Source: a bacterium (GTDB taxonomy: Bacteria; B130-G9). From it: a DNA stretch of 32,524 nt. Below the pieces are notes generated by a model. The model saw only the letters and a list, made by a program, of their open reading frames with translations. It was not told where the DNA came from and searched no databases. Numbering within the stretch: position 1 is the first letter of the stretch; every line of letters starts with the position of its first letter. Positions 16,921 through 32,524 of this stretch are shown here, piece by piece. The stretch is taken from assembly GCA_021160245.1 (NCBI GenBank), contig JAGHCW010000051.1:1-32524 (forward strand). Direction: 5' to 3'. The position numbers were made by a program, and so were the translations under genes.

Positions 16921-17141
16921 GAACGTTATCCGCCTCGCTAAAAATCTAGCTATCAAGAAGCGACTTCTCAGGGATTCCGGTCACTTCATTCGCAGTTCAT
17001 AGCCCTTTTATCGGCACATTAGGGCAATAGGATTAGTCCGGTAATCATCCACCCAGTCACTTGGCAAGACCTGGCCTTGCTTCTTCAACTTTGCATTCTG
17101 CAGTTAGTAGTTTATCTTATGATTTGGGTCGAGGATAAATA

Positions 17142-20100
17142 GTGGATGAGATAGCTGAGCATTCTGCGACTCGGCTTTCTATGGGGAGAGTTTGCACTGT
17201 GAGGAATTGGGCGCTTGTTGTTTTCACAATACTCTTGCTGTTGCGATTTTGTGCAATTGCTGTGGAGCGAGATACCGGCATAGAGCTTCCCTCTCTGACG
17301 ATTACGGGGCAAGCCAGATATCTGATACTGCCACAGCGGCCACCCGTCGTTCGGGAGAATTTGGCCCTCATTCGCGATGGCAAAACGCTAACGCAGGATG
17401 TGAATAGACTTCGTGTATATCCACAGGCTGCGCTTGAGGCGTCCATTCATAAACCCCAATCTGGCGGCTGTCTCTATGGCGCCGGACTCTCAGCGGCGGT
17501 CTCAATGCTATTTTCACCGGAGGAATCTCTATTTCGATATTCTCTCGTCCTCTATAGAAAAGGGAATCTATCCGCGGCGGACGAGCGGCTCGCGCGTCTA
17601 TGCGCCAAATACCAGCGCTCGGAGCATGTTCCCGAGGCGATCTTCTGGCGTGGTCAGATCGCCCTGACGCAGCGTAAATACCGGCTTGCGTCCGGTTATT
17701 TCAAGCAGATTGCAGAGACTTTTCCATCGCACTCATTGAGGCACGACGCGCTCTGTAACCTCGCCTATGCTCTTCATCTGCAGGGCAAGACTGAGGAATG
17801 TAAAGAGACGCTGAGCACTATCTTGCGCGACTATCCCACCTCTTTGAAGGCCTCCGCCGCAACCCATGCGCGCGCCTCGCTTAGATTCATAGATGGCGAG
17901 TTTGATGCGGCAGGCGAGGATTTTATGATTCTGTCAAGGGCGACATCCGACAAGACTCTTCGAGATGAATATACATACTGGCTGATAGAATCGCTCTATA
18001 TGGCGGGGCATTACGAAGAGACGCAGAAGCTGTGCGCCTCGCATAGCGTTGATTTTGAATCGAGTAAATTAGCGGCTCGTTTTCTTTATATTTGGGGTTT
18101 TGCGCAGATGCGACTTGGGATGGATGATGATGCGGTGGATGTCTTCAAGCGGATTTCTGGTTCGTTTCCCGAGTCGCAAGTTGCCCCGGCTGCCATTCTA
18201 GCTCGCTCGACGATGTTGTTTCGGCAAGGTCGCATTGCGGAGGCAAGCGAGGGATTTGCGGACATTGTCAAACGGTATCGAACGTCTGCGGAGTATTGCG
18301 ATGCCATTGTCAGCCTTGTCTCCGCCCGATTCAAGGTCGGTGATTTAGATTCAGCCCGAGATTGGTCTTTACAGGCCGAACAGTCCTGTGAGGGGTCCGA
18401 TGACTTGTCATCGAGAATACACTATCATTTGGGGCTGATATTCGCCGCGCAAGGGCAAGTAGTGAAGGCGGGTAAACGGTTCGATAAAGCCGCGCAGCTG
18501 GCGAATGACGACGCCGTGAGGGCCGCCTCGCTCTTGGGAGGGGGATGGTGCAGCTTCTCGCAGGGGGAATACAAAAGGGCTGCATCGCTTTTTGAGAGTT
18601 CCGTGTCGCTTGCGCAGAGCGCGGACGTTCGGCTCGAGTCGCAATTCTGGGCGGGGCAAGCGTTCCTCAAGCTCGGAAGGCCGAAAGAGGCCGGGAAGTC
18701 CTTTCAGTCTGTCTTGAGCACGGAAGGGGCAGGTCCTGACATTTCGCTTGACGCTCATCTTGGACTTGGCTTCGCATTCTTTCTCAGGGAGAGATGGGAG
18801 GAGGCGCTCAAGCACTTCCGCGTGATCGCCGAGAGCAATCGAGAGAGTGATGATCGCGCGGTTTCATGGCTTCGGATGAGCCAAATCGCCTTTTATTCTG
18901 CCCGCTACGAGTCTGGCGTCGAGTACGCGAACAATGCTGTGAGCTTGACCGATGATGACGCCATCCGCTGTGGCGCGGCGCTTATCAAGGGAAAATGCCT
19001 CTCCCGGCTGGGTAAAAAGGACGAGGCGCTTTTGCTGCTGCGTTCTTTGCCGACGCAATTTCCCGATTGTGATCATCTGGATGACGCCATGTTCGCAATC
19101 GCCACGATTCGCTTTGAGAGCGACGAGTTCAAGGAGTCTGCGTCGGCATTCAAAAGTCTAGTGTCATCGTCTCCTGAGAGTCCGCTTAGATACAAGGGTC
19201 TGCTGGGCGTTGCGAATTCCTTTTACAACCTGGGCGATTATGCGTCTGCAGTCGATTATTATATGCGGGTCGTGAAATCTGACGCTTTTGATACGGACAA
19301 GAAATCCGCCTTCTATGGGTTGATACTCTGTAGCCAACGGGAGGGGAAGCTCGACGAGCTGAAGACGCGGGTGGAGAAGTTCATAAAGCAGTTCAGCGAT
19401 GCGAAAATGGCCGGCATGTTGCGGGCGCTGCTTGCGGAGGAGTTGGCCCAAAGAGAGCAGTTCTTTGCCGCAATCTCGCAGTATAATCAGGCCTTCTATA
19501 GCCTCAAGAAGCAGGGCGCAAATGAGACTGAGCTCGCCAAGGTGCTTTACCGGGTTGGGCAGATAATGGAACAGACAGGCGATCTCAAAGGCGCGATTAG
19601 TGAGTATGACCAGCTCATTCTTCGGCTCGATGAGAACAGATACTCGAGAATGGGCAAGCTTAGAAAGGCTCATCTTCACGCTCAATTAGGGGAGACCAAG
19701 ACAGCGATCGCTCTTTACTCCAAATTGGTCCAGGAATATCCCCGAGACGTAGAGACCGCTGGGGTCGCGTTGGTTAAGCAGGCTGAGCTCCTTTGGGCGA
19801 CTGCCAAGAAGGGAGCGATATCCCTCTGCAATAGGGCCGTGAAGTTATTCCCCAAGACCGCTGTATCGGCGAATGCTCATATACTCGCGGCTGAGATCAT
19901 GATCGAGAAAGAGCAGTACGCGGGCGCCAGAAAACGACTCCAAGAGGCCAAAGAAGCGGCCATCGACCAAGATAAAAAGGCCTATGCGGATTACCTGTAT
20001 GGCGAGACGTTTTTGCGTCAAGGCAATCTAAAGGAGGCCTCGGCCGCGCTTATGAGCGTCAGATATCTCTATCCCTCATCGCCGTATGCGGCAAAATCGC

Positions 20101-20249
20101 TCCTTCTTGCGGGGCAGAGCTTGCAGAAATTGGGGAAGAAGGACGAGGCGCGAAAAGTCTTTCGAGCCCTTATCAGAGATTATCCTGACGAGGCGAGAAT
20201 AAGAAGTCAGGCGGAAAAAGGCCTCAAATTGCTTTCTGCGGCCGAGTAA
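17142..20249 (+). CDS. Large TPR-repeat protein, exported or membrane-anchored
   Basis: The 1035-residue protein has an N-terminal hydrophobic segment (NWALVVFTILLLLRFCAIA, about 19-37) that is a signal peptide or anchor. Almost all the rest is tetratricopeptide-type helix pairs, for example AIFWRGQIALTQRKYRLASGY, SLLGGGWCSFSQGEYKRAASL and MLFRQGRIAEASEGF. TPR arrays of this size act as protein-binding scaffolds. In envelope systems they occur as periplasmic or outer-membrane partners of ExbB/TolQ-type motors. GTG 17142 has GAGG (17131-17134) seven bases upstream; ATG 17181 is a weaker alternative. The next gene begins three bases after the stop, indicating an operon with 20253 and perhaps the ExbB-like gene at 21296. 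Function unknown. Confidence 0.85.
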   Translation: MDEIAEHSATRLSMGRVCTVRNWALVVFTILLLLRFCAIAVERDTGIELPSLTITGQARYLILPQRPPVVRENLALIRDGKTLTQDVNRLRVYPQAALEASIHKPQSGGCLYGAGLSAAVSMLFSPEESLFRYSLVLYRKGNLSAADERLARLCAKYQRSEHVPEAIFWRGQIALTQRKYRLASGYFKQIAETFPSHSLRHDALCNLAYALHLQGKTEECKETLSTILRDYPTSLKASAATHARASLRFIDGEFDAAGEDFMILSRATSDKTLRDEYTYWLIESLYMAGHYEETQKLCASHSVDFESSKLAARFLYIWGFAQMRLGMDDDAVDVFKRISGSFPESQVAPAAILARSTMLFRQGRIAEASEGFADIVKRYRTSAEYCDAIVSLVSARFKVGDLDSARDWSLQAEQSCEGSDDLSSRIHYHLGLIFAAQGQVVKAGKRFDKAAQLANDDAVRAASLLGGGWCSFSQGEYKRAASLFESSVSLAQSADVRLESQFWAGQAFLKLGRPKEAGKSFQSVLSTEGAGPDISLDAHLGLGFAFFLRERWEEALKHFRVIAESNRESDDRAVSWLRMSQIAFYSARYESGVEYANNAVSLTDDDAIRCGAALIKGKCLSRLGKKDEALLLLRSLPTQFPDCDHLDDAMFAIATIRFESDEFKESASAFKSLVSSSPESPLRYKGLLGVANSFYNLGDYASAVDYYMRVVKSDAFDTDKKSAFYGLILCSQREGKLDELKTRVEKFIKQFSDAKMAGMLRALLAEELAQREQFFAAISQYNQAFYSLKKQGANETELAKVLYRVGQIMEQTGDLKGAISEYDQLILRLDENRYSRMGKLRKAHLHAQLGETKTAIALYSKLVQEYPRDVETAGVALVKQAELLWATAKKGAISLCNRAVKLFPKTAVSANAHILAAEIMIEKEQYAGARKRLQEAKEAAIDQDKKAYADYLYGETFLRQGNLKEASAALMSVRYLYPSSPYAAKSLLLAGQSLQKLGKKDEARKVFRALIRDYPDEARIRSQAEKGLKLLSAAE

Positions 20250-20252
20250 CGG

Positions 20253-21221
20253 ATGTCTGCGCTCTCTGCCGGACATCTCTGTCAATTCAGCGTCGTCTTA
20301 TTGCTTCTGCTCTGCAATGTCTCTCTCTGCCAATCTCAGACGCTGAGCTCGATCTCCCTGACCGGACATCCCGAAAAATATAATGCAAGAGTCTCGCCTG
20401 AGTCCCTTTATAGTTTGGCCGAGGGGCTTTTTGGGAGAGATGACTATGAGGCGGCGGCGGTTCAATATCGGCTATTGCTTGAGCTTTTTCCCGAGTTTCG
20501 GGAGATCAAGAGGTGCCGGATGAAGATTGCGCTCTGTCATTTGCTTTTAGGGGAGTATGAGAGGTCGATTTGGGAGCTTGATTGCATCTTGAGCGAGAAG
20601 ATGATGGAATCGTTTTGGGATGAATCAAGGCTTTGGCAGGGTCTTTGCCTATATCGGAATGGTAATATCGCCGGGGCGCGGGACGTGTGGGATTCCGTTT
20701 GGCGCGAGGCGGCCAAGTATGATCTGAGGGCGTATGCCAGCTATTTTTTGGCGTGGGATTACTATATTCTTGGGAAACCGAAGATTGCGGTTAGGTACCT
20801 CACGGCGCTTGCAGTTAAGCAGCCTCCACCCGGTCTTGCTGGCCTTGATTTTCAAGCATTGTCGGATGCGTTTAAGGACACCAGTGGGCGGGGGCATAAG
20901 TCACCGCTCGCTGCGGGGCTTTTGAGCGCTGTGCTACCTGGCACTGGCCATATTTACTGTGAGCGATATCAGGATGGCGTTGTGGCATTCGTCCTGAACG
21001 CGGCCTTTACCGTTGCCTCGGTGGAGTGTTTCCGCAAGAAAGTCTATTCAGCAGGCGGCGTCTCAACATCGGTTGAATTGATTTGGTATTCAGGCACTAT
21101 ATATGGGGCGGTCAACGCCGCGCATGGACATAACAGACTTGAGCGAGAGCGGCATTTGGATGGATTGAGAGAGATATTTGGGGACGAGCGCTCGCTGTTG
21201 CCCAAGACCTTATATAATTGA
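20253..21221 (+). CDS. Exported membrane protein with TPR-like N-terminus and PGTGHIY domain
   Basis: This 322-residue protein has a signal sequence (hydrophobic about 10-25). A helical TPR-like region follows at about 48-200 (LYSLAEGLFGRDDYEAAAVQYRLL-type pairs). The C-terminal domain starts SPLAAGLLSAVLPGTGHIYCERYQDG, followed by two or three hydrophobic segments and WYSGTIYGAVNAAHGHNR. That C-terminal pattern recurs in conserved uncharacterised membrane proteins of many Gram-negative bacteria, similar in style to DUF5683. It follows the large TPR gene by three bases, so the two are almost certainly co-transcribed and may act together. No enzymatic motif is visible. Confidence 0.75.
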   Translation: MSALSAGHLCQFSVVLLLLLCNVSLCQSQTLSSISLTGHPEKYNARVSPESLYSLAEGLFGRDDYEAAAVQYRLLLELFPEFREIKRCRMKIALCHLLLGEYERSIWELDCILSEKMMESFWDESRLWQGLCLYRNGNIAGARDVWDSVWREAAKYDLRAYASYFLAWDYYILGKPKIAVRYLTALAVKQPPPGLAGLDFQALSDAFKDTSGRGHKSPLAAGLLSAVLPGTGHIYCERYQDGVVAFVLNAAFTVASVECFRKKVYSAGGVSTSVELIWYSGTIYGAVNAAHGHNRLERERHLDGLREIFGDERSLLPKTLYN

Positions 21222-21295
21222 CTATATATATTGATGATTGATGTTGGATTGGGAATCGCTGTCGATGGAGATTTCGCGACTTTTGGAGTCAACCG

Positions 21296-21973
21296 ATGAT
21301 TGATTACTTGATAGCAGGCGGGCCTTTCATGGTCCCGATTGTTCTATGCTCGGTGCTTTCCCTGGCGGTGATTGTGGAGAGGAGTTTGGCTCTGAGAGGT
21401 TCTCGGGTCATGCCACTGACCTTCTTAGGAGAGACGAAGCGGCTTTTAGGATCGGGTTCTGACGAATCGCTCCTTGAGCTTAGCGCAAAATATCAGGCCC
21501 CAATCGCGAGAGTTGTGGAGGAGGCGGTTCGCTCCCGCGGTCTTTCTTCAGATATTCTGCGCGATGTGATCGAGACAGCCGGAAAGAGGCAGGCGGACGG
21601 GCTATCTCGATTTCTGACTGTCCTGGCCACGATCGCGAGCATTTCGCCCCTTTTAGGTTTGCTAGGAACGGTAGCAGGGATGATCAAAGTATTTGATATT
21701 ATCTCGATCAAGGGCGTTACGAATCCCTCCGATCTCGCCGGAGGGATAGCTGAGGCGCTGTTGACAACAGCAGCTGGACTGGTTGTCGCGATTCCGACGC
21801 TTGTTGCATACAACTACTTCCGCAAACGTGTGAACGGTTATGTCATGCGGATGGAGGAGGTTTGCCTCGGCATGTTCTCCAGACTGTCCGAGAGGCGATG
21901 CGACGGCGTCGCTCCGGAGTCTGCCGACGGATTGAAGGAGATAGACGAGTGGATAGAGATCAAGAGGGACTAG
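21296..21973 (+). CDS. MotA/TolQ/ExbB-family proton channel protein without adjacent ExbD
   Basis: ExbB/TolQ proteins form pentameric inner-membrane channels that, with ExbD/TolR, convert proton motive force into work on outer-membrane or periplasmic partners. The 225-residue protein has a first helix (GGPFMVPIVLCSVLSLAVIVERSLAL) and a cytoplasmic segment. The conserved second and third helices are LATIASISPLLGLLGTVAGMI and GGIAEALLTTAAGLVVAIPTL. The length is typical. GGAG at 21285-21288 lies seven bases before the ATG. It follows the PGTGHIY-domain gene by 74 bases. No ExbD/TolR homologue follows it; the next gene is the TonB receptor 475 bases away. It may share the ExbD pair at 26011-26877 or serve the TPR proteins. 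Confidence 0.88.
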   Translation: MIDYLIAGGPFMVPIVLCSVLSLAVIVERSLALRGSRVMPLTFLGETKRLLGSGSDESLLELSAKYQAPIARVVEEAVRSRGLSSDILRDVIETAGKRQADGLSRFLTVLATIASISPLLGLLGTVAGMIKVFDIISIKGVTNPSDLAGGIAEALLTTAAGLVVAIPTLVAYNYFRKRVNGYVMRMEEVCLGMFSRLSERRCDGVAPESADGLKEIDEWIEIKRD

Positions 21974-22252: not shown

Positions 22253-22281
22253 TTGACAGCTCTTTGTCTAGTTCTTACAAT
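22253..22281 (+). promoter_or_regulatory. Sigma70-type promoter of the TonB-receptor block
   Basis: TTGACA (22253-22258), a 17-base spacer and TACAAT (22276-22281) give a full -35 match, the optimal spacing and a 5/6 -10 match. A transcript would start near 22288, leaving a leader of about 160 bases before the GTG start at 22449. It is the best promoter seen in the window. Confidence 0.65.
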
Positions 22282-22448: not shown

Positions 22449-24956
22449 GTGAAATATCGGTCTGCTCTGCCAGTTATACCTTTGTTATTCGCGTTGCTTA
22501 TTTTCGCCATGCCGGCGCTAGGCGGCATAACCGGCACAATTAAGGGCGATGTCAAAGACTCATCGACCGGTGAGCCACTTCCCTTCGCTGACATATTGAT
22601 ATCGGGTCCGGCGCTTCTGAAGCCATATTCGTTTTCAGCTGACAAGGACGGCAAGTTCGTAATGGCAGGACTGCCTCCTGGAACCTATAACGTTGAAGTG
22701 GTTTATGTTGGCTACATAAAGAAGAAGACAACAGGCGTATCAGTTACGATGGATAGAACGTCAACTGTGAAGGTCACTCTGGAGCAGAAGATAGCGCTGG
22801 AAAAAGAGATTGAGGTAGTAGCTCAGAGTCCGTTAATTGAGAAAGAAGTCTCGGGGACATCGGACGTCATCGAGGGCGATTACATTGAGGACATGCCGAT
22901 TCAGGGCCGAGCGTATCAAAATGCGTTGAAGATACTCCCCGGTACTCTTGTGGACAGGGACCAGCAGATTCATATCAGAGGTGGTCGGACAGGTGAGGTA
23001 GGATTCAAGGTTGATGGCATGGACGCTCAGGACCCTGTTACAGGGGGCTATGGCACCAACATCAATATGAATGCTGTCGAGAAGATGGAGGTCATAACTG
23101 GAGGCTACGACGCCGAGTATGGCGGCAATATGTCTGGTATGGTCAATGTTGTTACAAAAAGCGGAACGGATAGTCTGCATGGTAGCGTTCTTTACAACTA
23201 CCAGAATGATAGGCTTGATGGTGTTCCTTACGATTGGCGAGCCTATAACCCGGGCTTCACGCTAAAGGGGCCCATCGTTCCAGAGAAACTGAACTTCTTT
23301 CTCTCGTTTGAGTTTGAGAACAACAAGCGGGCATTCCCGGCTGCCGAGTGGCCACAGGATGAGTATTCCGACGGCACCTGGACTGAGATGGGCGGCATGC
23401 TCAAGTTCACCTGGCTTATCACTGCTGATGACAAAGCCGTAATCCAGTATTTCCTCAATCACGTTGACACCAGGCCTGGGGCCGATTGGATTGATGGTGC
23501 GCGACTCTATACAATGGGCTTTGACTACAACTTCGCGATGATCAATCTTACCCATACTTTTACGCCCGAGTTGATATACGAGGGGTTATTGGGCTTTGGG
23601 CGTTTGTATCTCGAAGCTAAGGTTGATGGCAAGGACTGGTCCGAATACGAGCCGTTTGTTTATGTGGCCAACATGGACGAGTCGATCTATACGGCCGAGA
23701 AGCAATACGGCGGCAGGGGTGACTATCCATCTTGGTACTGGCGCGAAGTTTATAGAACCTACTTCCAGTCAACACTCACCTGGATTATGGATGATCATCG
23801 GTTGAGAGCCGGTGGTTATATCCAATACATAGATTACATGAGTGAGAGCGTGGATTTAGCAGCGTACTTCACCTCGTACAGGCAATACTGGGATCCGAAT
23901 CCCGAGAACATGACATACGTGATGAAGCGACAGTTTAATATGAACAAAATTGACGAGACGACCCATTACGGTGGCGTTTATGTTCAAGACAGGTGGAGTC
24001 TGGACGAGAACCATGACTTGCCTATATTCCTTAACTATGGAATAAGATTCGACTGGCAGGAGGCGAACAACGGCCACGAAGTATCGCCTCGGCTCGGGAT
24101 AACCTACACACCGGACGACCGGACGAAGCTCAGAGTGAATTACGGCTGGTTCTTCCAGATGATCCCACTTGGCGATGCATACGCCCAGGACCATCAGATT
24201 CTCTATGAGAGCACTTCGCGATCCACGCGTGGGGAGACGATTGAGTTCAATACCTATAGCGCGGCTGAGGACCTCCGTAACCCGATAAATAAGGCCTTCG
24301 AGATTGGCATAGAGCGTGAGATATTCGCCGAGATATCACTTGGCGTAACCTATTACGACAAGGACATGCAGGACCTTCTAGAGACGGTGGACATCAATCC
24401 GGACCCAGCGGTTGACGAGTGGCGGATCATGAATGTGGCCGGCGCTTGGGCTCGCGGCTTTGAGGTGAAGTTTAAGAAGGCTTTTTCTAAGGGCTTTGAA
24501 GGCCGTATTGCTTACACCTATCAGGAGGCGAAGTCGATAGGGATTGACAGGTACGGGAACATGACGGGCGATGAGACCTGGCTTGATTGGGACCTACGTC
24601 ACGCTCTTGCGGCTTCGTTCAATGCCGAGTTACCTTGGGACCTCAATCTCAATGGAATCTACACGTTTAGCACCGGCTACCCTTATACGCGGGAATACCT
24701 GGTTCGCGATGAGGAGACCGACGCGCTAGAGCGTGAGGAGGACAAGATAAATGAGGAGCGTGAACCCTATCGTAGCAGCTTCGATGTGACACTTTCGAAG
24801 GATATGAACGTCCGGGATTACAAGCTGACTGTGATGCTTCAATCCTATAATGTTTTTGACCACCGAAACGTCTCTCGGATGGACTCGCTTTCGGGCGAAC
24901 CACGTAGTTACGAGGCTGGACGCCGGTTGCTGTTCGGGCTTCAATTCGAGTTCTAG
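22449..24956 (+). CDS. TonB-dependent outer-membrane receptor with carboxypeptidase-regulatory domain
   Basis: TonB-dependent receptors import or export large ligands across the outer membrane using energy from ExbB/ExbD. The 835-residue protein has a signal peptide (hydrophobic about 7-24), then a CarboxypepD_reg-like domain (about 27-112, GDVKDSSTGEPLPFADILI and PPGTYNVEVVYVGY). The plug domain (about 125-235) contains IQGRAYQNALKILPG, IHIRGGRTGEVGFKVDGMD and GGYDAEYGGNMSGMVNVVT. A beta-barrel fills the remainder, ending in the aromatic LLFGLQFEF typical of Bam substrates. GTG 22449 is set by AGGAG at 22436-22440, eight bases upstream. The plug and barrel style resembles the Bacteroidetes/SusC-like or Oar-like receptors. 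The substrate is unknown. ExbB and two ExbD genes follow, but no TonB gene is visible. Confidence 0.9.
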   Translation: MKYRSALPVIPLLFALLIFAMPALGGITGTIKGDVKDSSTGEPLPFADILISGPALLKPYSFSADKDGKFVMAGLPPGTYNVEVVYVGYIKKKTTGVSVTMDRTSTVKVTLEQKIALEKEIEVVAQSPLIEKEVSGTSDVIEGDYIEDMPIQGRAYQNALKILPGTLVDRDQQIHIRGGRTGEVGFKVDGMDAQDPVTGGYGTNINMNAVEKMEVITGGYDAEYGGNMSGMVNVVTKSGTDSLHGSVLYNYQNDRLDGVPYDWRAYNPGFTLKGPIVPEKLNFFLSFEFENNKRAFPAAEWPQDEYSDGTWTEMGGMLKFTWLITADDKAVIQYFLNHVDTRPGADWIDGARLYTMGFDYNFAMINLTHTFTPELIYEGLLGFGRLYLEAKVDGKDWSEYEPFVYVANMDESIYTAEKQYGGRGDYPSWYWREVYRTYFQSTLTWIMDDHRLRAGGYIQYIDYMSESVDLAAYFTSYRQYWDPNPENMTYVMKRQFNMNKIDETTHYGGVYVQDRWSLDENHDLPIFLNYGIRFDWQEANNGHEVSPRLGITYTPDDRTKLRVNYGWFFQMIPLGDAYAQDHQILYESTSRSTRGETIEFNTYSAAEDLRNPINKAFEIGIEREIFAEISLGVTYYDKDMQDLLETVDINPDPAVDEWRIMNVAGAWARGFEVKFKKAFSKGFEGRIAYTYQEAKSIGIDRYGNMTGDETWLDWDLRHALAASFNAELPWDLNLNGIYTFSTGYPYTREYLVRDEETDALEREEDKINEEREPYRSSFDVTLSKDMNVRDYKLTVMLQSYNVFDHRNVSRMDSLSGEPRSYEAGRRLLFGLQFEF

Positions 24957-25111
24957 AGCATTTTATCGACGAATATAGAGAGATTAGAGGCAGCCTGTTC
25001 AGGTTCGGCTAGGGGTGGAACCAAGCTGTTCCGGAGCATAATGCGAAGGCCCTCAGCGCGTTCCATCTTTTGATCGCCGAAGAGATTGGGGGTAATTCAG
25101 GGAGAGCCTAT

Positions 25112-26014
25112 GTGAGAAGAGAATATGTTTCTTTGCTTTCGTTTAACGTAGTAGTATTTGGGATCGCCCTTGCTATAGCCTTCGCCGCGCCGCAAGGAGC
25201 TTTTGCGCAGGCCTCGTCCGGCAGCCTAATGCCTGGTGAGGCACCAACGACAGAGTCCACATCGGCGATAGGGGAATCCCCTGGTGGGGCCACCTTGTCC
25301 ACCGAATCTGTGCAGGACTTGCCAGCAGACGGAGCAGGCGGGACGGCGGATACTCCGCCAAAGGACGAGCCAAAGGCGCCGGAGTCAGGAGAAAAGAAAT
25401 CATCTGCTGGATTGGGGCTACTCTCGCTTTTCCAGAAAGGCGGACCTGTGATGTGGCCGCTCTTCGCAGCACTGCTTATTGCGTTTGCCTTCACAATCGA
25501 GCGTGGGATTGTCTTTGGAAAGGCTCGTATGAATGTTCGAGCTTTCATGCGCAAGATCGATGACTCCTTGGAGAAAGGCGATACGAAAGGCGCGATTGGC
25601 CTCTGTGAGCAGGCGCGAGGGCCTGTCGCCTCGGTAATCAAGGCTGGCCTTCTTAGATGGGACAAGGGCAAGAAGCAGGTTGAAAAAGCTATTGAGACCG
25701 CCGGAGCGGGCGCGATGTCCAAAATGGAGAGAGGGCTTCCGGTTTTGGCAAGTATCGCCAACATCGCTCCTCTTCTTGGGTTCCTTGGGACCGTAACCGG
25801 AATGATAAAGTCGTTTGGCGTTATCGCGAAAGCGGGACTTTCCAATCCGGGACTTGTGGCTCAGGGCATTTCGGAGGCTTTGATAACGACCGCGTCCGGG
25901 CTCATTATAGCCATTCCGGCGCTTGCGGCGTTCAACTTTTTTACAAGCATGATTGCCAAATCCGCTCTTGAGATGGATGAGAGCACCTCGCAGCTTCTAG
26001 ACCGCGCGAAATGA
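25112..26014 (+). CDS. exbB: ExbB/TolQ-family channel protein with signal peptide and exported N-terminal extension
   Basis: The 300-residue protein starts with a classic signal peptide (MRREYVSLLSF, hydrophobic core to about 27, probable cleavage at GAFAQA). A Ser/Gly/Pro/Thr-rich periplasmic linker runs to about residue 105. The ExbB core follows: GGPVMWPLFAALLIAFAFTIERG, then VLASIANIAPLLGFLGTVTGMI and GISEALITTASGLIIAIPAL. This long N-terminal type occurs in several Gram-negative ExbB proteins. GTG 25112 is chosen over TTG 25070 because GGAG at 25101-25104 lies seven bases before it and the signal peptide then starts cleanly. Its stop overlaps the first exbD start in ATGA (26011-26014), so the two are co-translated. 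Confidence 0.9.
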   Translation: MRREYVSLLSFNVVVFGIALAIAFAAPQGAFAQASSGSLMPGEAPTTESTSAIGESPGGATLSTESVQDLPADGAGGTADTPPKDEPKAPESGEKKSSAGLGLLSLFQKGGPVMWPLFAALLIAFAFTIERGIVFGKARMNVRAFMRKIDDSLEKGDTKGAIGLCEQARGPVASVIKAGLLRWDKGKKQVEKAIETAGAGAMSKMERGLPVLASIANIAPLLGFLGTVTGMIKSFGVIAKAGLSNPGLVAQGISEALITTASGLIIAIPALAAFNFFTSMIAKSALEMDESTSQLLDRAK

Positions 26015-26451
26015 GATTCAGACGCAAGTCGAATGTCCAGGCCGGTATCCCCTCTGCCTCGATGGGAGATATCGCGTTTCTTCTTATTGTCTTCTTTATG
26101 GTTACCACGACCTTCAGCGTTGACAAGTCGAAGGTGAATCTCCCAGAGAGCTTTGAGCGAGAGGCTACGGTCCCGGGCGCCGCGATAATCGTCATCAAAG
26201 AGAATGGGGAGCTATTGCTCTCCGAGGGGGACAAGAATCCCCAGCCGGCGGGACTGAATGACGTGTTGGTTTTTGCGCTGAACCTAGTTGCCATGCAGCC
26301 TCAGATGCAGTTTACGATTAAGGCCTCTCGAGACTCGGAGTACCGATACTTCGATCGCGTAATGGAGCAGCTTCGCGACGCGAACGCCAAGAACATATCG
26401 TTACTGAGCATGCAGAAAGTCGCTGGGCATAGTGGGCGGGGGGCTCGGTGA
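26011..26451 (+). CDS. exbD: ExbD/TolR-family protein 1
   Basis: ExbD proteins have one N-terminal transmembrane helix with a proton-carrying aspartate inside the ExbB pentamer, plus a periplasmic domain. This 146-residue protein shows SASMGDIAFLLIVFFMVTTTF, whose Asp (about residue 20) is the conserved one. The periplasmic part (about 40-130) follows, with VIVIKENGELLL-like strands, a helix around NDVLVFALNLVA and VMEQLRDANAKNISLLS. It overlaps exbB by four bases. The second exbD begins on the base after its stop. Confidence 0.9.
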   Translation: MRFRRKSNVQAGIPSASMGDIAFLLIVFFMVTTTFSVDKSKVNLPESFEREATVPGAAIIVIKENGELLLSEGDKNPQPAGLNDVLVFALNLVAMQPQMQFTIKASRDSEYRYFDRVMEQLRDANAKNISLLSMQKVAGHSGRGAR

Positions 26452-26877
26452 ATGAAGTTCGGAACTAGACTGAAGATTGAGGAAGATGTCTCCTCGTCGT
26501 CCACTGCGGATATCGCTTTTCTGCTGATCATCTTCTTCATGGTCACCACTGCCTTTGGGACGACTAGGGGGCTTGAAATGACCCTTCCAAAAAAACAGAA
26601 GGTCACCCAAGAAGTCTCGACCACCGAGGCAGTGCTAGTCGAGATTGATGACTATGGCAACATCTTCATTGACGGTGGCGGAGTTTTGTTGGAGCACATC
26701 GAACCTTACATTCGTCCGAAACTGGCACGTAATCCCAATAAATACGTTCTGATAAAGTCCAGCCTGGCGGCCAAGTATGAATACGCGGTGTCGGTTGTCG
26801 ATGAACTGCGGCTTTCGGGCGTGAAGAATATCTCGATCCCAACTCAAAAAGAGATAGCGAGCTGGGGTCAGTATTAG
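26452..26877 (+). CDS. exbD: ExbD/TolR-family protein 2
   Basis: This 141-residue ExbD paralogue has the helix SSTADIAFLLIIFFMVTTAFG with the conserved Asp. A periplasmic domain follows, with LVEIDDYGNIFIDG, VLIKSSLAAKYEYAVSVVDELR and LSGVKNISIPTQ. Its start directly follows the TGA of the first exbD with no gap. The two paralogues share the family pattern but differ through most of their periplasmic parts, so this is not a recent duplication. Because ExbD works as a dimer, the pair could form a heterodimer on one ExbB ring. That is inference. Confidence 0.9.
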   Translation: MKFGTRLKIEEDVSSSSTADIAFLLIIFFMVTTAFGTTRGLEMTLPKKQKVTQEVSTTEAVLVEIDDYGNIFIDGGGVLLEHIEPYIRPKLARNPNKYVLIKSSLAAKYEYAVSVVDELRLSGVKNISIPTQKEIASWGQY

Positions 26878-27004
26878 CGGCTGGGGCTGACGCAAGAGCT
26901 AAGGCCGACAAACGCTAAACTGTGTTACGAATTCTCGTTGAGGGTTGCCGGGTGTCCGTGAACCTCAACACGTATTATGTAGTTTTACTCTATGGAGGTA
27001 GATC

Positions 27005-27979
27005 ATGCTTACTACTCGCGTAAAGTGCGCCTCGTTTCTTCTCGCCATTCTCGTGATTCCTGTTTGGCTGAGTTATCCCATATTTGCAGATACCCAAACA
27101 CCGTCCGCCGCGCAGACGCCAGGCGATTCGGAGAATCCTTTTGTTCTGATCAAGAATTTCAAAGGCACGCCAATCGACTTCAATTTGGAGATATGCGCGT
27201 TCAAGCTATATGACGCTCCGGGCGCCGAGATAGATGTCTATTACGAGATACCTAATAAACAATTGGCTTTTAAGCCACTTGTCTCAGACGAGTTTGCCAC
27301 GTCACTGGTTGTTGCCGTCAGAATACTTGATAAGGACGGCAAGATTCTAAAGGAGACGGCCAGCAGAGGCTCAACAAGGGTCAAGACAGAGAAGGAGACG
27401 AAGGACCCAGCTCTTTCTGGCAATTTCATTAGCTCCTTCAATCTCGAGCCGGGCGATTATGTCTTCAAGGTCGGAGTTTGCGACAACGTCAGCGGCGCGG
27501 TTGGGGTGAAGGAGAGGAAGTTCTCGCTCAAATCGCTCCCCGAAGGCGAGCTCGGAATCAGCAGCGTGCTATTCTCCAGCGATGTCAGGAAGGCTGAGTC
27601 GGAAGATGATCCGGCTCTTGTGAAGGGTGACTGGGTGGTGACTTCCAATCCGACCCGGACATACCGCATTGGCGACACGCTCTCCGTATATTTCAATATC
27701 TATAATCTCAAGCTGGACAATGCTGGCAAGCCCAGGTTCAAGGTCTCCTACGTCTTCAAGCGAGAGGGCCAGAAAAAGATGTGGCGTGACGTTGTGAAGG
27801 GAGAACGCAAGAAGGGCGAGAACCAGGGCCACCTCTATTCCAACGACTTACTAGCGAAGTTCAAGGGCACGGATAAGGACAAGTTCAAGCCCGGCAAGTA
27901 CACGTTATTTATTAAGGTTACAGACGAACTAGGTAACAAGGCCGTGGAGGCGAAAGAAGCATTCACGATCTTGGAATAA
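27005..27979 (+). CDS. Exported beta-sandwich protein of unknown function
   Basis: The 324-residue product has a signal peptide (hydrophobic about 9-26, probable cleavage IFA28). The remainder looks like two or three all-beta domains: VDVYYEIPNKQLAF-like strands, SSFNLEPGDYVFKVGVCD near the middle, then TYRIGDTLSVYFNIYNL and KPGKYTLFIKVTDELGNKAVEA at the end. The last pattern is typical of immunoglobulin-like domains that accompany GWxTD-domain proteins, and a GWxTD gene lies two genes downstream. GGAGG (26994-26998) lies six bases before the ATG. It sits between exbD and the metallopeptidase and probably belongs to that operon. No catalytic residues were recognised. Confidence 0.75.
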   Translation: MLTTRVKCASFLLAILVIPVWLSYPIFADTQTPSAAQTPGDSENPFVLIKNFKGTPIDFNLEICAFKLYDAPGAEIDVYYEIPNKQLAFKPLVSDEFATSLVVAVRILDKDGKILKETASRGSTRVKTEKETKDPALSGNFISSFNLEPGDYVFKVGVCDNVSGAVGVKERKFSLKSLPEGELGISSVLFSSDVRKAESEDDPALVKGDWVVTSNPTRTYRIGDTLSVYFNIYNLKLDNAGKPRFKVSYVFKREGQKKMWRDVVKGERKKGENQGHLYSNDLLAKFKGTDKDKFKPGKYTLFIKVTDELGNKAVEAKEAFTILE

Positions 27980-28039
27980 TTTATTTTTGGTGATTCTCGT
28001 CTTGAGATGAGCACGACCATTGATTGGAGGAAAGAGGCA

Positions 28040-31000
28040 ATGCGTCACAATTTTGTGGAGAAAATGGCCCTCGTGCTGTTTGCCGTCGTCTTTGCGGCAA
28101 GCATTTTGTGCATGGGCTCTGAGGTGCAGGCAAGCGATGAGACCTACACCGGCATTTCGAAGGATAGGAGCTGCACTTGGTGGCTTCCCGAGAGCCAGGA
28201 AGTCTCAAAGGATGACAGGGACCAGATCGAGAAGCTCTTCAAGGCATTCGAGAAGAAGCTCGAAAAAGACGGCGTCAACTCTGTGACTTTGCCCTGGCAG
28301 GCCCCCGACGAGGCTGAAGAGCCTGAGGAGGAGGCGAAGAAAGAGAAGGAACTGACGGATGAGCAGAAGAAGTGGGAGGAGAATCAGGTTTACGAGGACC
28401 CAGACCGCTCTCCCAATGTCTTCTTCCTTTCCAAGGGTGACCTGAACATCGTCAAAATTGATGGCGTTCCGACCGGCACGCTCTTTGTGGTTCGTGGAAC
28501 CTTCGACAAGCCACGAATCGACGTTTGGAGGGTGAAGCTGGCCAAAGAGGATGATGAGTGGATCATGAAGAGCAAGGAGGTTGAATACAGTTTTGACCTG
28601 ATTCACTTCATGACCGTAAAGGACAAGTCGGCCTACAAGTTCAACGAAATCAAGATAGACCACGATTGTATGCACATCTCGATGAAGAAGGGCACGTTCT
28701 ATCCCCTTTACGCCGGTCACGATAAGATCATCGGCGGAACGATCTTCGGGAAGGGGACGATGAACTACTTCCCCCCAACCAAGCTCGCAAAGAATTGGGA
28801 GACGACGCAGGAGCCTGACCAGTTGCTCCGCCACACCAAGAACCTATTGGGCAAAAAGCGTGGCACAAAGGAATTGAAGAACGCCAAGATAACCAAGTTT
28901 ACCTTCTATTTCACGCCCACCAATTTCGACAGATATGTCAAGCTCGACGGGCTGGAGAAGATTGGGGTCTCCGATAAGAAAGAGCTCGAAGATGCCAAGG
29001 ACATGATCAACGGCGAGATCGATTGGTTAGCCAAGACGGATTGGGATGTGAAGCTTCCCTACAAGGGGCAGCCTGATGGTGAGAAGCACGTAGTGAAGCT
29101 CTATTATCTGCCGGATTATGACGAGCTTTGTGATCTCTATATGTATAGCCCCAAGTACTTCAACGTGGGCTATTACGACTATCCACCTGGCCCGGCTAAT
29201 CAGGAAGAGATTTCGCTCTATGCGAACAGAGACATCCTGCTGAAGTTCGGCGATGACAGGGCTGGCGGCGCCTGGGGCGGTTACAATCGCAAGGAGCAGC
29301 GCGAGAATCTGACTCGTCGCGAGGCGGAGTATGAGCCCGTTGACAAGATCAATATGTACAACCGCCGCGTCGATCTTGTGGTTACCGGCAAGGATGAGAG
29401 GCTCGAGTCGATGGTTGGCAAGTCGGGCATGGTAACCAAGTTCCGGGCGACGTGCGATTTTGAGACTCTAATGCAGAACACAAGGGTGGTAGCATTCTCA
29501 CTTTCCGGCGCGGGCGGCCAGCGCAGACGCGCAACTCCAATGAATGTCAAGAAAGTAGTTGATGAGAAGGGTCTTGACATCTTGCGCATGAGCTCAATGA
29601 CGTTGGTCTTTCCGCCGCTGAGGAAGGGCCAGATGAAGTCGTTCACTGCGGAATATAGCGGCTATCTCATGATTCGAATACGAACAGGTGATACGTTCAC
29701 ATCGGGCAACAGCACTTGGTATCCAAACTATGGCTATCTTTCCTGCGCGACGATGCAGGTTGTGTTGGGCGTCCCGAAGCGCTATAGAGGAATTACTGTA
29801 GGCGTGCGGAAGGGAGAGGAGTGGGAAGACGGGAAATATAGGTATTCGCATTGGGGCTCGGACAAATGTATCAAGCTCGCCGCAGTCCTCATGGGTGACT
29901 ATCAAATCCTGGAAAGAGATTTTGCAAGACCCGACGGTTCGACGTTTAAGTTCTACTTCTATTACACACCGAACATGACCTACTACAGCTCCGAGGGGGA
30001 TTATTATGGCTTCTCGGATCGCCACCGGGATACAGGCACGAGAAGTGAGAGCTGGCGATCGGCCGGGAAGTACCACCGGATCAACTTCGCCATCAAGGAC
30101 CCGGAGTCGGTAGTCACAGAGTTCGAGAGTATTATGGCTTGGCTTCAGGCCATTTATCACCGGTATCCCTACGACAAGATAGCGGCTGTTATGATGCCGA
30201 TTTACAGCTGGTATGGCCAGGGCTTTCCCACTATATTGACGTTGGATGGGACATCGTTCATGTCCGAGGGTGACAAGGCGAAATACGACGGGTTTTTCCG
30301 TGGTCTGGGCTCCGGCTGGGGCGCCCGGTTCTGGGACCATGAGGCCGGTCATCAGTATTGGGGACACGTTGTTGGCTGGTTCCAGCCAAGAGACCAGTGG
30401 ATATCCGAGGCATTTACCGAGCATCAGAGCGGCATGTATTACGAGGCGTCGAGAGACCCCAAGGAGTATAAGGCTTGCTTAGATGAATGGAAGTATACGG
30501 CGATTAAGTGGGACGACCAAGGGTCAATCTCATTGGGAGGCGGTAGGCTAGGAGATGCGTACATACCGATGATCTACAACAAGGGTCCCTGGATGGTTCA
30601 CATGATTCGAAAGGCGATTGGGGACAAGAATTTCCAGATTTTCTGCAAGAACCTCCTGAAGTCAATGGAGTGGAAGAACCCGACATCAAGCGATGTCCTC
30701 GACGTTCTTCAGGCCATGTTGGGCAAGGAGGGCACGCAGCAGCTCTTTGGGACCGACAACATGGACTGGTTCTTCGACCAGTGGCTCTACGGTACAGGCA
30801 TCCCCAGCTATGATTACGGATGGAAGTCGTTCAAGAAAGACGGCGAGTATTTCGCCAAGATCAGGATCAAGCACAAGGACGTTCAGTTCCGGGTGCGTAT
30901 CCCGATATTCGTTCACGGGAAGGACGGCAGCGTTTATGGCGTGCCTCTAATTTTGACGGGCGAGAAGCCGATCGAAGAATTCGAGATCAAGCTGCGTGGG

Positions 31001-31084
31001 CCGGCCAAGAAGCTCGTGCTCGATGAGTTTGAGGCGGTTCTTACAAAGAAGATCAAGAAAGTTAGTTACAGGAAACTGAAGTAG
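28040..31084 (+). CDS. Large exported M1-like (gluzincin) metallopeptidase
   Basis: The 1014-residue protein has a signal peptide cleaved near VQA31, a helical segment, and a Glu/Lys-rich linker (about 89-116). A long beta-rich N-terminal region follows. The catalytic domain has zinc ligands in HEAGH (His767, His771) with the third ligand Glu790 in WISEAFTE, exactly 18 residues later: the HEXXH-X18-E arrangement of family M1. The usual catalytic tyrosine appears as Tyr846 in IYNKGPWMVHM. The GXMEN aminopeptidase motif expected about 30-40 residues before HEXXH is not seen; that position reads YGQGFPTIL (about 725-733). It is therefore probably a periplasmic or surface peptidase with altered specificity. 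ATG 28040 is preferred over 28007 because GGAGG lies nine bases before it and it begins the signal peptide. Confidence 0.82.
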   Translation: MRHNFVEKMALVLFAVVFAASILCMGSEVQASDETYTGISKDRSCTWWLPESQEVSKDDRDQIEKLFKAFEKKLEKDGVNSVTLPWQAPDEAEEPEEEAKKEKELTDEQKKWEENQVYEDPDRSPNVFFLSKGDLNIVKIDGVPTGTLFVVRGTFDKPRIDVWRVKLAKEDDEWIMKSKEVEYSFDLIHFMTVKDKSAYKFNEIKIDHDCMHISMKKGTFYPLYAGHDKIIGGTIFGKGTMNYFPPTKLAKNWETTQEPDQLLRHTKNLLGKKRGTKELKNAKITKFTFYFTPTNFDRYVKLDGLEKIGVSDKKELEDAKDMINGEIDWLAKTDWDVKLPYKGQPDGEKHVVKLYYLPDYDELCDLYMYSPKYFNVGYYDYPPGPANQEEISLYANRDILLKFGDDRAGGAWGGYNRKEQRENLTRREAEYEPVDKINMYNRRVDLVVTGKDERLESMVGKSGMVTKFRATCDFETLMQNTRVVAFSLSGAGGQRRRATPMNVKKVVDEKGLDILRMSSMTLVFPPLRKGQMKSFTAEYSGYLMIRIRTGDTFTSGNSTWYPNYGYLSCATMQVVLGVPKRYRGITVGVRKGEEWEDGKYRYSHWGSDKCIKLAAVLMGDYQILERDFARPDGSTFKFYFYYTPNMTYYSSEGDYYGFSDRHRDTGTRSESWRSAGKYHRINFAIKDPESVVTEFESIMAWLQAIYHRYPYDKIAAVMMPIYSWYGQGFPTILTLDGTSFMSEGDKAKYDGFFRGLGSGWGARFWDHEAGHQYWGHVVGWFQPRDQWISEAFTEHQSGMYYEASRDPKEYKACLDEWKYTAIKWDDQGSISLGGGRLGDAYIPMIYNKGPWMVHMIRKAIGDKNFQIFCKNLLKSMEWKNPTSSDVLDVLQAMLGKEGTQQLFGTDNMDWFFDQWLYGTGIPSYDYGWKSFKKDGEYFAKIRIKHKDVQFRVRIPIFVHGKDGSVYGVPLILTGEKPIEEFEIKLRGPAKKLVLDEFEAVLTKKIKKVSYRKLK

Positions 31085-31141
31085 ATTGACGTTTTGAGTC
31101 CTCCTCTTTTTGGTGGCGGTCGGTTTCTATCGGTCGCCATC

Positions 31142-31170
31142 TCGACTCAAGGGGACCGGCTGCGTATAAT
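31142..31170 (+). promoter_or_regulatory. Possible sigma70 promoter of the GWxTD gene
   Basis: TCGACT (31142-31147, 4/6 match to -35), a 17-base spacer and a perfect TATAAT (31165-31170) lie in the 236-bp gap before the GWxTD gene. A transcript would start near 31177, about 145 bases before the ATG. It suggests that this gene can be expressed separately from the peptidase gene. Confidence 0.4.
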
Positions 31171-31320
31171 GAGAATGTTCTTTTCAATGGTGGTTCGAGG
31201 TGGCGGATCGAGGACCGAGGCGGCGCATTGCAGAGTGCCGCTAGCGAGATGGTCGGGGCTCTCTTTGGAGCACTTAGTTTTTCTTTTACCTGCCCAACCA
31301 AACACAAGGAGCGAAGGCGC

Positions 31321-32524
31321 ATGAGCAACGTGAATGCAAGGTTAAGACTACTTAGTCTTATCTCGCTTATCTGCGCTTCGATTTTGACTTCGAGCTGCAT
31401 AACCTACTGGGCGTATGACACGCTTGATGAGGACGGGAAGCGGATATTCGACGAGATTCGGTATGTCGCCACGTCGAATGAGCTCAACGCATTTTTAGAG
31501 ACTTCGCCGGATGCGCGAGATGAATTTCTCAAGGAGTTTTGGAAAAAACGTGATCCCACGCCTAATACGCCTGTCAATGAGTTCAAGATCGAACACTACA
31601 AGCGTCTTGCCTACGCTGAGAAGCACTTCCGCTGGGGCCGGAAACCTGGGTGGAAAACAGACCGCGGCAAGGTTTTCATCAAGTATGGCAAACCGACGCG
31701 AATAGATAGCAGGCCGATAGGTGACATCAATGCAGGTGGCGGCTGGGGCTCAAAGCCATACGACGAGTGGTGGTATGACTACATTCCATACGTTGGCACC
31801 GATGTAAATTTCCTCTTCGTCGATGTTTATATGACCGGCGAATATGTTTTGGCTGGCTCCATGGGCGAGACGAGTAACGATCCGATGAAGATCGTTGAGA
31901 GCTCCGGGTTCTCTGCTGGGCAGGTTGAAGGTACGGACACAGACATCGAATTGGCAGCGAGTTCCGCCGAGAAGAAGGCCACAGAAAGGGACTATGAACG
32001 ACAGAGGAGCACAAGGGTCGGCGGCGGAGTTTGGGAGACGAAGGCGGATGGGACGACAAAAGGCGACGAGACGATAATCGACATTGAGCAGGGCGTTCCC
32101 GATCCATTTAAGGCTGCCGTCCCCATAACGCTCGAAGAGTCGACGCTCGATCTGACTGTGGGCATACTCACATTTGGCTCGCAAAGCCGCACGAACATGG
32201 TGGAGTTCGACTTCGTCGTTCCGAATGCCGATCTTCAGTTTGAGCGGATTGATGACGCTTTCCAGGCCGAGATGATTATCTCCACGCGCCTCTATGATTC
32301 GGAAAGAACGTTGGTCGGCGGAACAGTGAGGCGCCGGTTTGCTACCGAGGAGCATGAGAAGGAGACAATAGCTGACGACAGGTTCTTCACATACATAGCC
32401 GGCGCCCTCTTAGGGACGGGTGTCTATGAGATTGAGGCCGTAGCGAAGGACACTCGTTCTGAGATGTATGGATACGTCAGGCAGATATTTGAGGTGAAGA
32501 TAATCGATCCCTATCATCTGAGTC
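31321..32524 (+). CDS. GWxTD-domain protein, probable lipoprotein (3' truncated by window)
   Basis: The frame opens at ATG 31321, preceded by AAGGAG (31306-31311) at nine bases, and stays open for 401 codons to the window end. The N-terminus has a hydrophobic stretch ending SILTSSC, a possible lipobox with Cys26. The GWxTD domain follows: FLKEFWKKRDPTPNTP at about 69-84, YAEKHFRW at 98-105, and the name motif GWKTDRGKVFIKYGKP at 110-125. The later part (about 255-401) is beta-rich with a GVYEIEAVAKD strand near the end. The family is widespread in Bacteroidetes and uncultured phyla; its function is unknown. Its place after the peptidase suggests a periplasmic or outer-membrane partner. Confidence 0.85.
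   Translation, partial: MSNVNARLRLLSLISLICASILTSSCITYWAYDTLDEDGKRIFDEIRYVATSNELNAFLETSPDARDEFLKEFWKKRDPTPNTPVNEFKIEHYKRLAYAEKHFRWGRKPGWKTDRGKVFIKYGKPTRIDSRPIGDINAGGGWGSKPYDEWWYDYIPYVGTDVNFLFVDVYMTGEYVLAGSMGETSNDPMKIVESSGFSAGQVEGTDTDIELAASSAEKKATERDYERQRSTRVGGGVWETKADGTTKGDETIIDIEQGVPDPFKAAVPITLEESTLDLTVGILTFGSQSRTNMVEFDFVVPNADLQFERIDDAFQAEMIISTRLYDSERTLVGGTVRRRFATEEHEKETIADDRFFTYIAGALLGTGVYEIEAVAKDTRSEMYGYVRQIFEVKIIDPYHLS

Follow-up and report, generated by a model that had tools for sequence, protein, structure and literature searches.

A conserved 13-gene block of Ton, peptidase, MacB-class ATPase and GWxTD genes in a deep-branching bacterial family

The window analysed here is a stretch of 32,524 nucleotides (JAGHCW010000051.1), the complete contig C193 of a 244-contig, 3.43 Mb bacterial genome (GCA_021160245.1), and it carries genes for a Ton system, an M1-fold peptidase and a GWxTD protein. 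The original prediction had described seven genes at 22449-32524 as one collinear block: a TonB-dependent receptor, ExbB, two ExbD, a beta-sandwich protein, an M1-like peptidase and a GWxTD protein. All seven lie on the plus strand where they were placed, and Pfam confirmed the domain assignments, with cut-offs passed for CarboxypepD_reg, Plug and barrel, MotA_ExbB, ExbD (twice), Peptidase_M1 and GWxTD_dom. The ATGA overlap of exbB and exbD and the zero-gap exbD pair are both exact. We compared gene order in four genomes, the window genome (G000) and three relatives of the same family (G001, G002 and G003), which were examined by searches with the window proteins and by reading of their open reading frames (ORFs); the relatives searched included no second family of the same phylum. 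These seven genes form the central part of a longer conserved block. It comprises 13 genes in the order TPR1035, TPR322, ExbB1, receptor, ExbB2, ExbD1, ExbD2, beta protein, M1 peptidase, GWxTD protein, ATP-binding cassette (ABC) ATPase of the MacB/LolD class, ExbB3 and TonB, of which the two tetratricopeptide repeat (TPR) genes and an additional exbB (17142-21973) form the upstream part. The features are listed below.

17142..20249, plus strand: large TPR protein, 1035 aa, with an N-terminal hydrophobic segment; first gene of the block (TPR models; G001 orthologue at the same place, 50% identity, upstream genes differ)
20253..21221, plus strand: TPR protein of 322 aa whose C-terminal region is hydrophobic (TPR_2 match; G001 orthologue at the same place)
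21296..21973, plus strand: ExbB1, pore residues kept (IAEALLTTAAGL) (MotA_ExbB 5e-35; same place in G001 and G003; alignment)
22449..24956, plus strand: TonB-dependent outer-membrane receptor with the Oar domain architecture (PF13620, PF07715, PF00593, PF25183; 68-69% identity in G001 and G003)
25112..26014, plus strand: ExbB2 with an N-terminal extension, pore residues kept; likely GTG start at 25112, longest ORF from 25070 (MotA_ExbB 1e-31; alignment)
26011..26451, plus strand: ExbD1, ATGA overlap with exbB2, gap -4 (ExbD 6e-16)
26452..26877, plus strand: ExbD2, zero gap to exbD1 (ExbD 6e-23)
27005..27979, plus strand: exported beta protein, a paralogue corresponding to the GWxTD protein's C-terminal half (hhalign, BLASTP; in all four genomes)
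28040..31084, plus strand: exported M1-fold peptidase, predicted to be a zinc enzyme; likely ATG start at 28040 after GGAGG, longest ORF from 28007 (Peptidase_M1; motif check; structure model)
31321..32524, plus strand: GWxTD protein with a lipoprotein-like N-terminus; likely ATG start at 31321, truncated near residue 401 of 550 where the contig stops (TIGR04514)
L131:10860-11741 (minus strand), L122:2214-3155, L124:650-1543 and L292:1783-2682: ExbB3 beside TonB, pore Glu replaced by Gln (alignment)

The full block is present in G001, split over contigs C157 and C72. It is visible from ExbB2 onward in G002 (C86 and C163) and from ExbB1 onward in G003 (C106 and C194), in both of which a contig is cut within the peptidase gene. 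Most block proteins share 52-73% identity across the four genomes, and the flanking genes differ, both 5′ of the large TPR gene, as G001 shows, and 3′ of TonB. Because the flanks are rearranged while the order inside is kept, the block has true boundaries, and conservation of order at such identities goes beyond chance. Thus the proposed union of Ton module, receptor, peptidase and GWxTD protein in one block stands in all four genomes, although the block is longer than had been drawn. It is very unlikely that inheritance alone keeps these genes together, as it would if an ordinary Ton operon merely lay next to genes of unrelated exported proteins in a small family. Such an account fits the small number of related genomes (just four), the restriction of the peptidase link to this family and the intergenic gaps of more than 100 bp at some places in the block, among them gaps of 475, 155, 127 and 236 bp. 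However, the block stays collinear despite its rearranged flanks, and exbB3 and tonB lie beyond the peptidase and GWxTD genes, so the Ton genes enclose these. Promoter and terminator scans gave counts near chance (15 vs 12.4 and 17 vs 14.2, respectively), and therefore transcripts cannot be defined from them; a promoter-like site with 11/12 matching positions lies at 22253-22281, 5′ of the receptor gene.

The block had been thought to contain no TonB gene, and hence to need an unusual coupling protein or a TonB from elsewhere. The window ends inside the GWxTD gene, and so this apparent lack is an artefact of the contig end. In the window genome TonB domains above cut-off occur on contigs C217, C114 and C166, and C114 (L131) ends with the last ~50 codons of a GWxTD protein, followed by the ATPase, ExbB3 and TonB. 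The C114 fragment matches residues 499-547 of the GWxTD orthologue and the C193 part matches residues 18-414, and the order GWxTD, ATPase, ExbB3, TonB is identical in G001, G002 and G003. From the two halves of the split gene and the shared downstream order in the three relatives we infer that C193 and C114 adjoin, with ~250 bp missing between them. With tonB encoded just beyond the break, the need for an unusual coupling protein falls. Across the two contigs the Ton components amount to three PF01618, two PF02472 and one PF03544 domains.

The three ExbB proteins are not equivalent. By alignment, ExbB1 and ExbB2 retain the pore sequence I(A/S)EAL(L/I)TTA, whereas ExbB3 reads ISQALIMSAAGL at the pore in 4/4 genomes, a change visible against Escherichia coli TolQ too. 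In every case the pore Glu has become Gln and the second Thr has become Ser. The pore residues of E. coli ExbB are Thr148, Glu176 and Thr181, and we take the ExbB3 substitutions to correspond to Glu176 to Gln and Thr181 to Ser. ExbB3 would not be a proton channel subunit of the ordinary kind. That a TonB-adjacent ExbB lacks the pore glutamate bears on the role of additional ExbB copies.

The GWxTD protein matches TIGR04514 at 109.4 bits (cut-off 28) and PF20094 at 46.9 (cut-off 26.9). The beta protein, which has only weak Ig-like matches in Pfam and no GWxTD domain, aligns with the GWxTD protein in the C-terminal half of the latter (BLASTP 8e-21; hhalign probability 99.4, E 1.3e-21). This match holds in all four genomes, and the two proteins are thus a paralogous pair, with the peptidase gene between them. 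A single-sequence structure model of the beta protein was too poor for use (predicted local distance difference test, pLDDT, 44). The literature searched does not mention GWxTD, and we found no function there for this widespread family.

The peptidase carries the predicted HEXXH-X18-E motif (HEAGH...E). An AlphaFold2 model built with 29 relatives reached a predicted template modelling score (pTM) of 0.78, and VIA-align matched its residues 411-1009 to aminopeptidase N (2gtq) with Z 32.7 and a root-mean-square deviation of 3.0 over 487 residues, leaving ~350 N-terminal residues outside the matched M1 fold. With aminopeptidase N, LTA4H and the Deinococcus radiodurans M1 enzyme it shares the fold over residues 385-1014, HEXXH-X18-E and a Tyr-x-Lys-Gly region; it differs from them by the additional N-terminal residues and by the absence of GXMEN, at whose place the four orthologues have GQGFP (or GQGQA) and relatives have GQAxP. 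Judged from these motifs, the protein should be a zinc peptidase, and loss of GXMEN argues that it is probably not a standard aminopeptidase. Handling of peptides or proteins at the cell envelope, as suggested for the block, is a reasonable theme; trimming of a substrate by the peptidase is conjectural. The family has a second, distant peptidase paralogue away from the Ton and GWxTD genes (L127:8352-10853 on G000 contig C16, L121:10248-12836 and L126).

In other phyla the peptidase has a different setting. Among 80 loci with relatives of the peptidase, no GWxTD or TonB match was found nearby and ExbB/ExbD occurred in one Chlorobi locus only. Conversely, the matches listed for 32 genomes outside the family include no M1 genes near GWxTD. 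We therefore rejected the idea that the peptidase marks the system in general, its link to GWxTD being confined to the family of the window. The Ton motor was likewise rejected as a general neighbour of GWxTD, with ExbD nearby in only 3/32 genomes outside the family (G097, G081 and G084). The original prediction had proposed testing whether receptor, double ExbD, peptidase and GWxTD genes co-occur in homologous loci. All are together in the four family genomes; beyond these, the loci and listed matches showed no peptidase near GWxTD, and ExbD is an occasional neighbour overall, recurrent only in some Zixibacteria and relatives.

The tenth gene from the start of the block is followed by the ABC ATPase, whose best NCBIfam match is MacB (260 bits), ahead of LolD (238 bits). 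The MacB score lies under the cut-off of the full-length model because the permease part is absent. In a small tree the ATPase clusters with those of Zixibacteria cassettes described below. A lone MacB-like permease is encoded elsewhere in the window genome (L211:5874-7103, contig C130), with no ATPase, adaptor or exit-duct gene adjacent. No other MacB-like permease of the window genome lacks a neighbouring ATPase, and none matches the cassette permeases nearly as well; the genome also encodes FtsX permeases that come with ATPases of their own. Could the locus serve envelope maintenance, or lipoprotein and protein sorting? A LolD-type ATPase, a Ton/Tol-like motor and TPR proteins would then move or fold parts of the outer membrane, and the peptidase would provide quality control. 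The near-equal MacB and LolD scores would suit such a role, as would the ExbB and ExbD proteins, whose matches to TolQ/TolR models equal or exceed those to ExbB/ExbD models, and the retention of the locus in all four genomes. However, the clear TonB C-terminal domain, the plugged TonB-dependent receptor and the separate FtsX permeases with ATPases of their own for housekeeping all speak against it, and we consider this role distinctly unlikely.

We then turn to the neighbourhoods of GWxTD genes in other phyla. In a set of 45 genomes GWxTD was common in Zixibacteria, Acidobacteria, Latescibacterota, KSB1, Calditrichota and others. It was found in 58/60 Zixibacteria genomes, mostly as a tandem pair, and 30 of the 33 Zixibacteria neighbourhoods fetched (L249-L265, L267-L281) have GWxTD directly 3′ of a TolC-MacA-MacB cassette. 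Of the other three loci, two have no such cassette and one is truncated where its contig stops. The cassette usually begins with a YIP1-like gene, followed by TolC-like, MacA-like adaptor, MacB-class ATPase and paired MacB-like permease genes; these names rest on the NCBIfam match of the ATPase and on inspection of the other proteins. Moreover, ExbB-ExbD-ExbD-TonB lies 5′ of the cassette in 4/33 Zixibacteria loci, and likewise in G097, G103 and G081. One Zixibacteria locus, L259, has a motor cluster 5′ of its GWxTD cassette in which three ExbD-like and two TonB-like genes seem to be present. A MacA-like gene is close to GWxTD in three Acidobacteria loci. Other phyla show no single fixed partner, GWxTD standing beside PriA-like, RimO-like or TatC-like genes. 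In Latescibacterota and similar bacteria it adjoins a PriA-like gene (~820 aa, named by inspection) in five loci (L172, L178, L179, L183 and L186), a stable association, though one that looks unrelated. Gene neighbourhoods thus suggest that GWxTD proteins may be partners of MacB-type exporters.

MacAB-TolC is a tripartite exporter of the type VII ABC transporter class (PMC5985334). The block resembles its Zixibacteria form with GWxTD pairs in having a MacB-class ATPase beside GWxTD-type proteins, and in several lineages a Ton motor upstream; it differs in having a receptor and a peptidase, and in that permease, adaptor and TolC genes lie outside it. In the literature searched we found no report of joined Ton and MacB gene clusters.

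The receptor, with N-terminal CarboxypepD_reg, plug and barrel, falls within the definition of Oar-type TonB-dependent transporters (PF13620/PF13715, plug and barrel; PMC6434023). The Ton-Oar system of Myxococcus xanthus, comprising one TonB, one ExbB and two ExbD, is required for secretion of the protease PopC (PMC6434023). Alike in the two systems are a CarboxypepD_reg/plug/barrel receptor, TonB, ExbB, two ExbD encoded with the receptor, and the involvement of a protease. The block differs in that it has three ExbB (one with an altered pore), an ABC ATPase, two TPR proteins and two GWxTD-type proteins, and in that it encodes a peptidase with an M1 fold and a signal peptide. PopC is a protease of another kind. 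A second comparison is the Vibrio TonB2 system, in which TtpB2, TtpC2, ExbB2, ExbD2, TonB2 and TtpD2 are all essential (PMC6957404). It too is a Ton operon that includes a TPR protein and goes beyond the canonical three components, but it has one ExbD against two in the block and lacks the peptidase, GWxTD and ABC ATPase. TtpC is an ExbB-like protein; TtpB (DUF3450) found no match among the block proteins.

Taken together, two lineages share a Ton motor (ExbB-ExbD-ExbD/TonB), a MacB-class ATPase and a GWxTD-type pair, and this points to a transport machine. Our preferred reading, to which we give somewhat less than an even chance, is that the block encodes one envelope-spanning, Ton-energised machine for the transport of peptides or proteins, in which the GWxTD proteins serve a MacB-class transporter. 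As Ton-Oar of M. xanthus is the nearest known layout, we favour export of peptides, proteins or lipopeptides over import. In this machine ExbB/ExbD complexes would drive TonB to open the receptor, with ExbB3 as a structural or regulatory subunit rather than a channel and the TPR proteins as periplasmic scaffolds. The GWxTD-type pair may act as periplasmic or outer-membrane partners of a MacB-class transporter, which would take its ATPase from the block and possibly its permease from the lone C130 gene. As for the peptidase, it would work on the transported peptides or proteins, either within the periplasm or outside.

Several observations weigh against this reading. No permease, MacA-like adaptor or TolC gene was found within the block, and the ATPase tree has few outgroups. 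GWxTD neighbours differ in most other phyla; GWxTD pairs occur without a cassette in G101, G102 and two Zixibacteria loci; and the peptidase-GWxTD link is limited to one family. Moreover, the Oar architecture is shared by 28% of all TonB-dependent transporters (PMC6434023), most receptors of this kind presumably being importers. Export, like the role of the receptor in secretion, is a prediction. Import by the receptor is a serious rival. Here the receptor would take up peptides or protein fragments that the peptidase cuts outside the cell or in the periplasm, the GWxTD-type proteins would bind ligand, Ton would provide power and the ATPase would be separate. Import is the usual task of TonB-dependent receptors; the receptor shares its block with the motor and the peptidase; and siderophore uptake by Vibrio TonB2 requires TPR and additional proteins (PMC6957404). 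However, we found no inner-membrane peptide importer in the block, the ATPase is of the MacB/LolD/FtsE class and not of an importer class, and the GWxTD genes of Zixibacteria accompany exporter-type cassettes. We hold uptake to be plausible, though less likely than the preferred reading.

Other genes of the window bear less directly on this system. A secretin with TPR and STN domains lies at the contig start (190-1968). The 1778-aa product of 3210-8546 combines CarboxypepD_reg with fn3-like repeats and is probably a large protein of the cell surface. Next to the block, at 12830-16956, two sensor kinase genes overlap on the minus strand; one has Cache and HAMP domains, the other is a hybrid with PAS and receiver domains, and neither is conserved with the block. 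The large TPR protein was considered as the type IX secretion protein PorW/SprE and rejected (125.9 bits vs a cut-off of 250), the similarity being that of TPR proteins in general. An RpoB tree of limited sample places the family of the window on a long branch, nearest Acidobacteriota; the family is deep-branching and little known.

In summary, the near-fixed TolC-MacA-MacB neighbourhood in Zixibacteria, with a MacB-class ATPase and Ton motor in a second lineage, suggests a concrete and testable role for GWxTD proteins. A bolder proposal, unlikely as it stands, is that GWxTD proteins are a class of periplasmic partners that couple MacB-class transporters to Ton-type motors, bringing ATP and proton energy to bear on one cargo, and that in the family of the window these parts have merged into a 13-gene locus with an Oar-like exit gate and a processing peptidase. 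If a Ton motor and a MacB-class transporter do act on one cargo, this would be a new way to power transport across two membranes.

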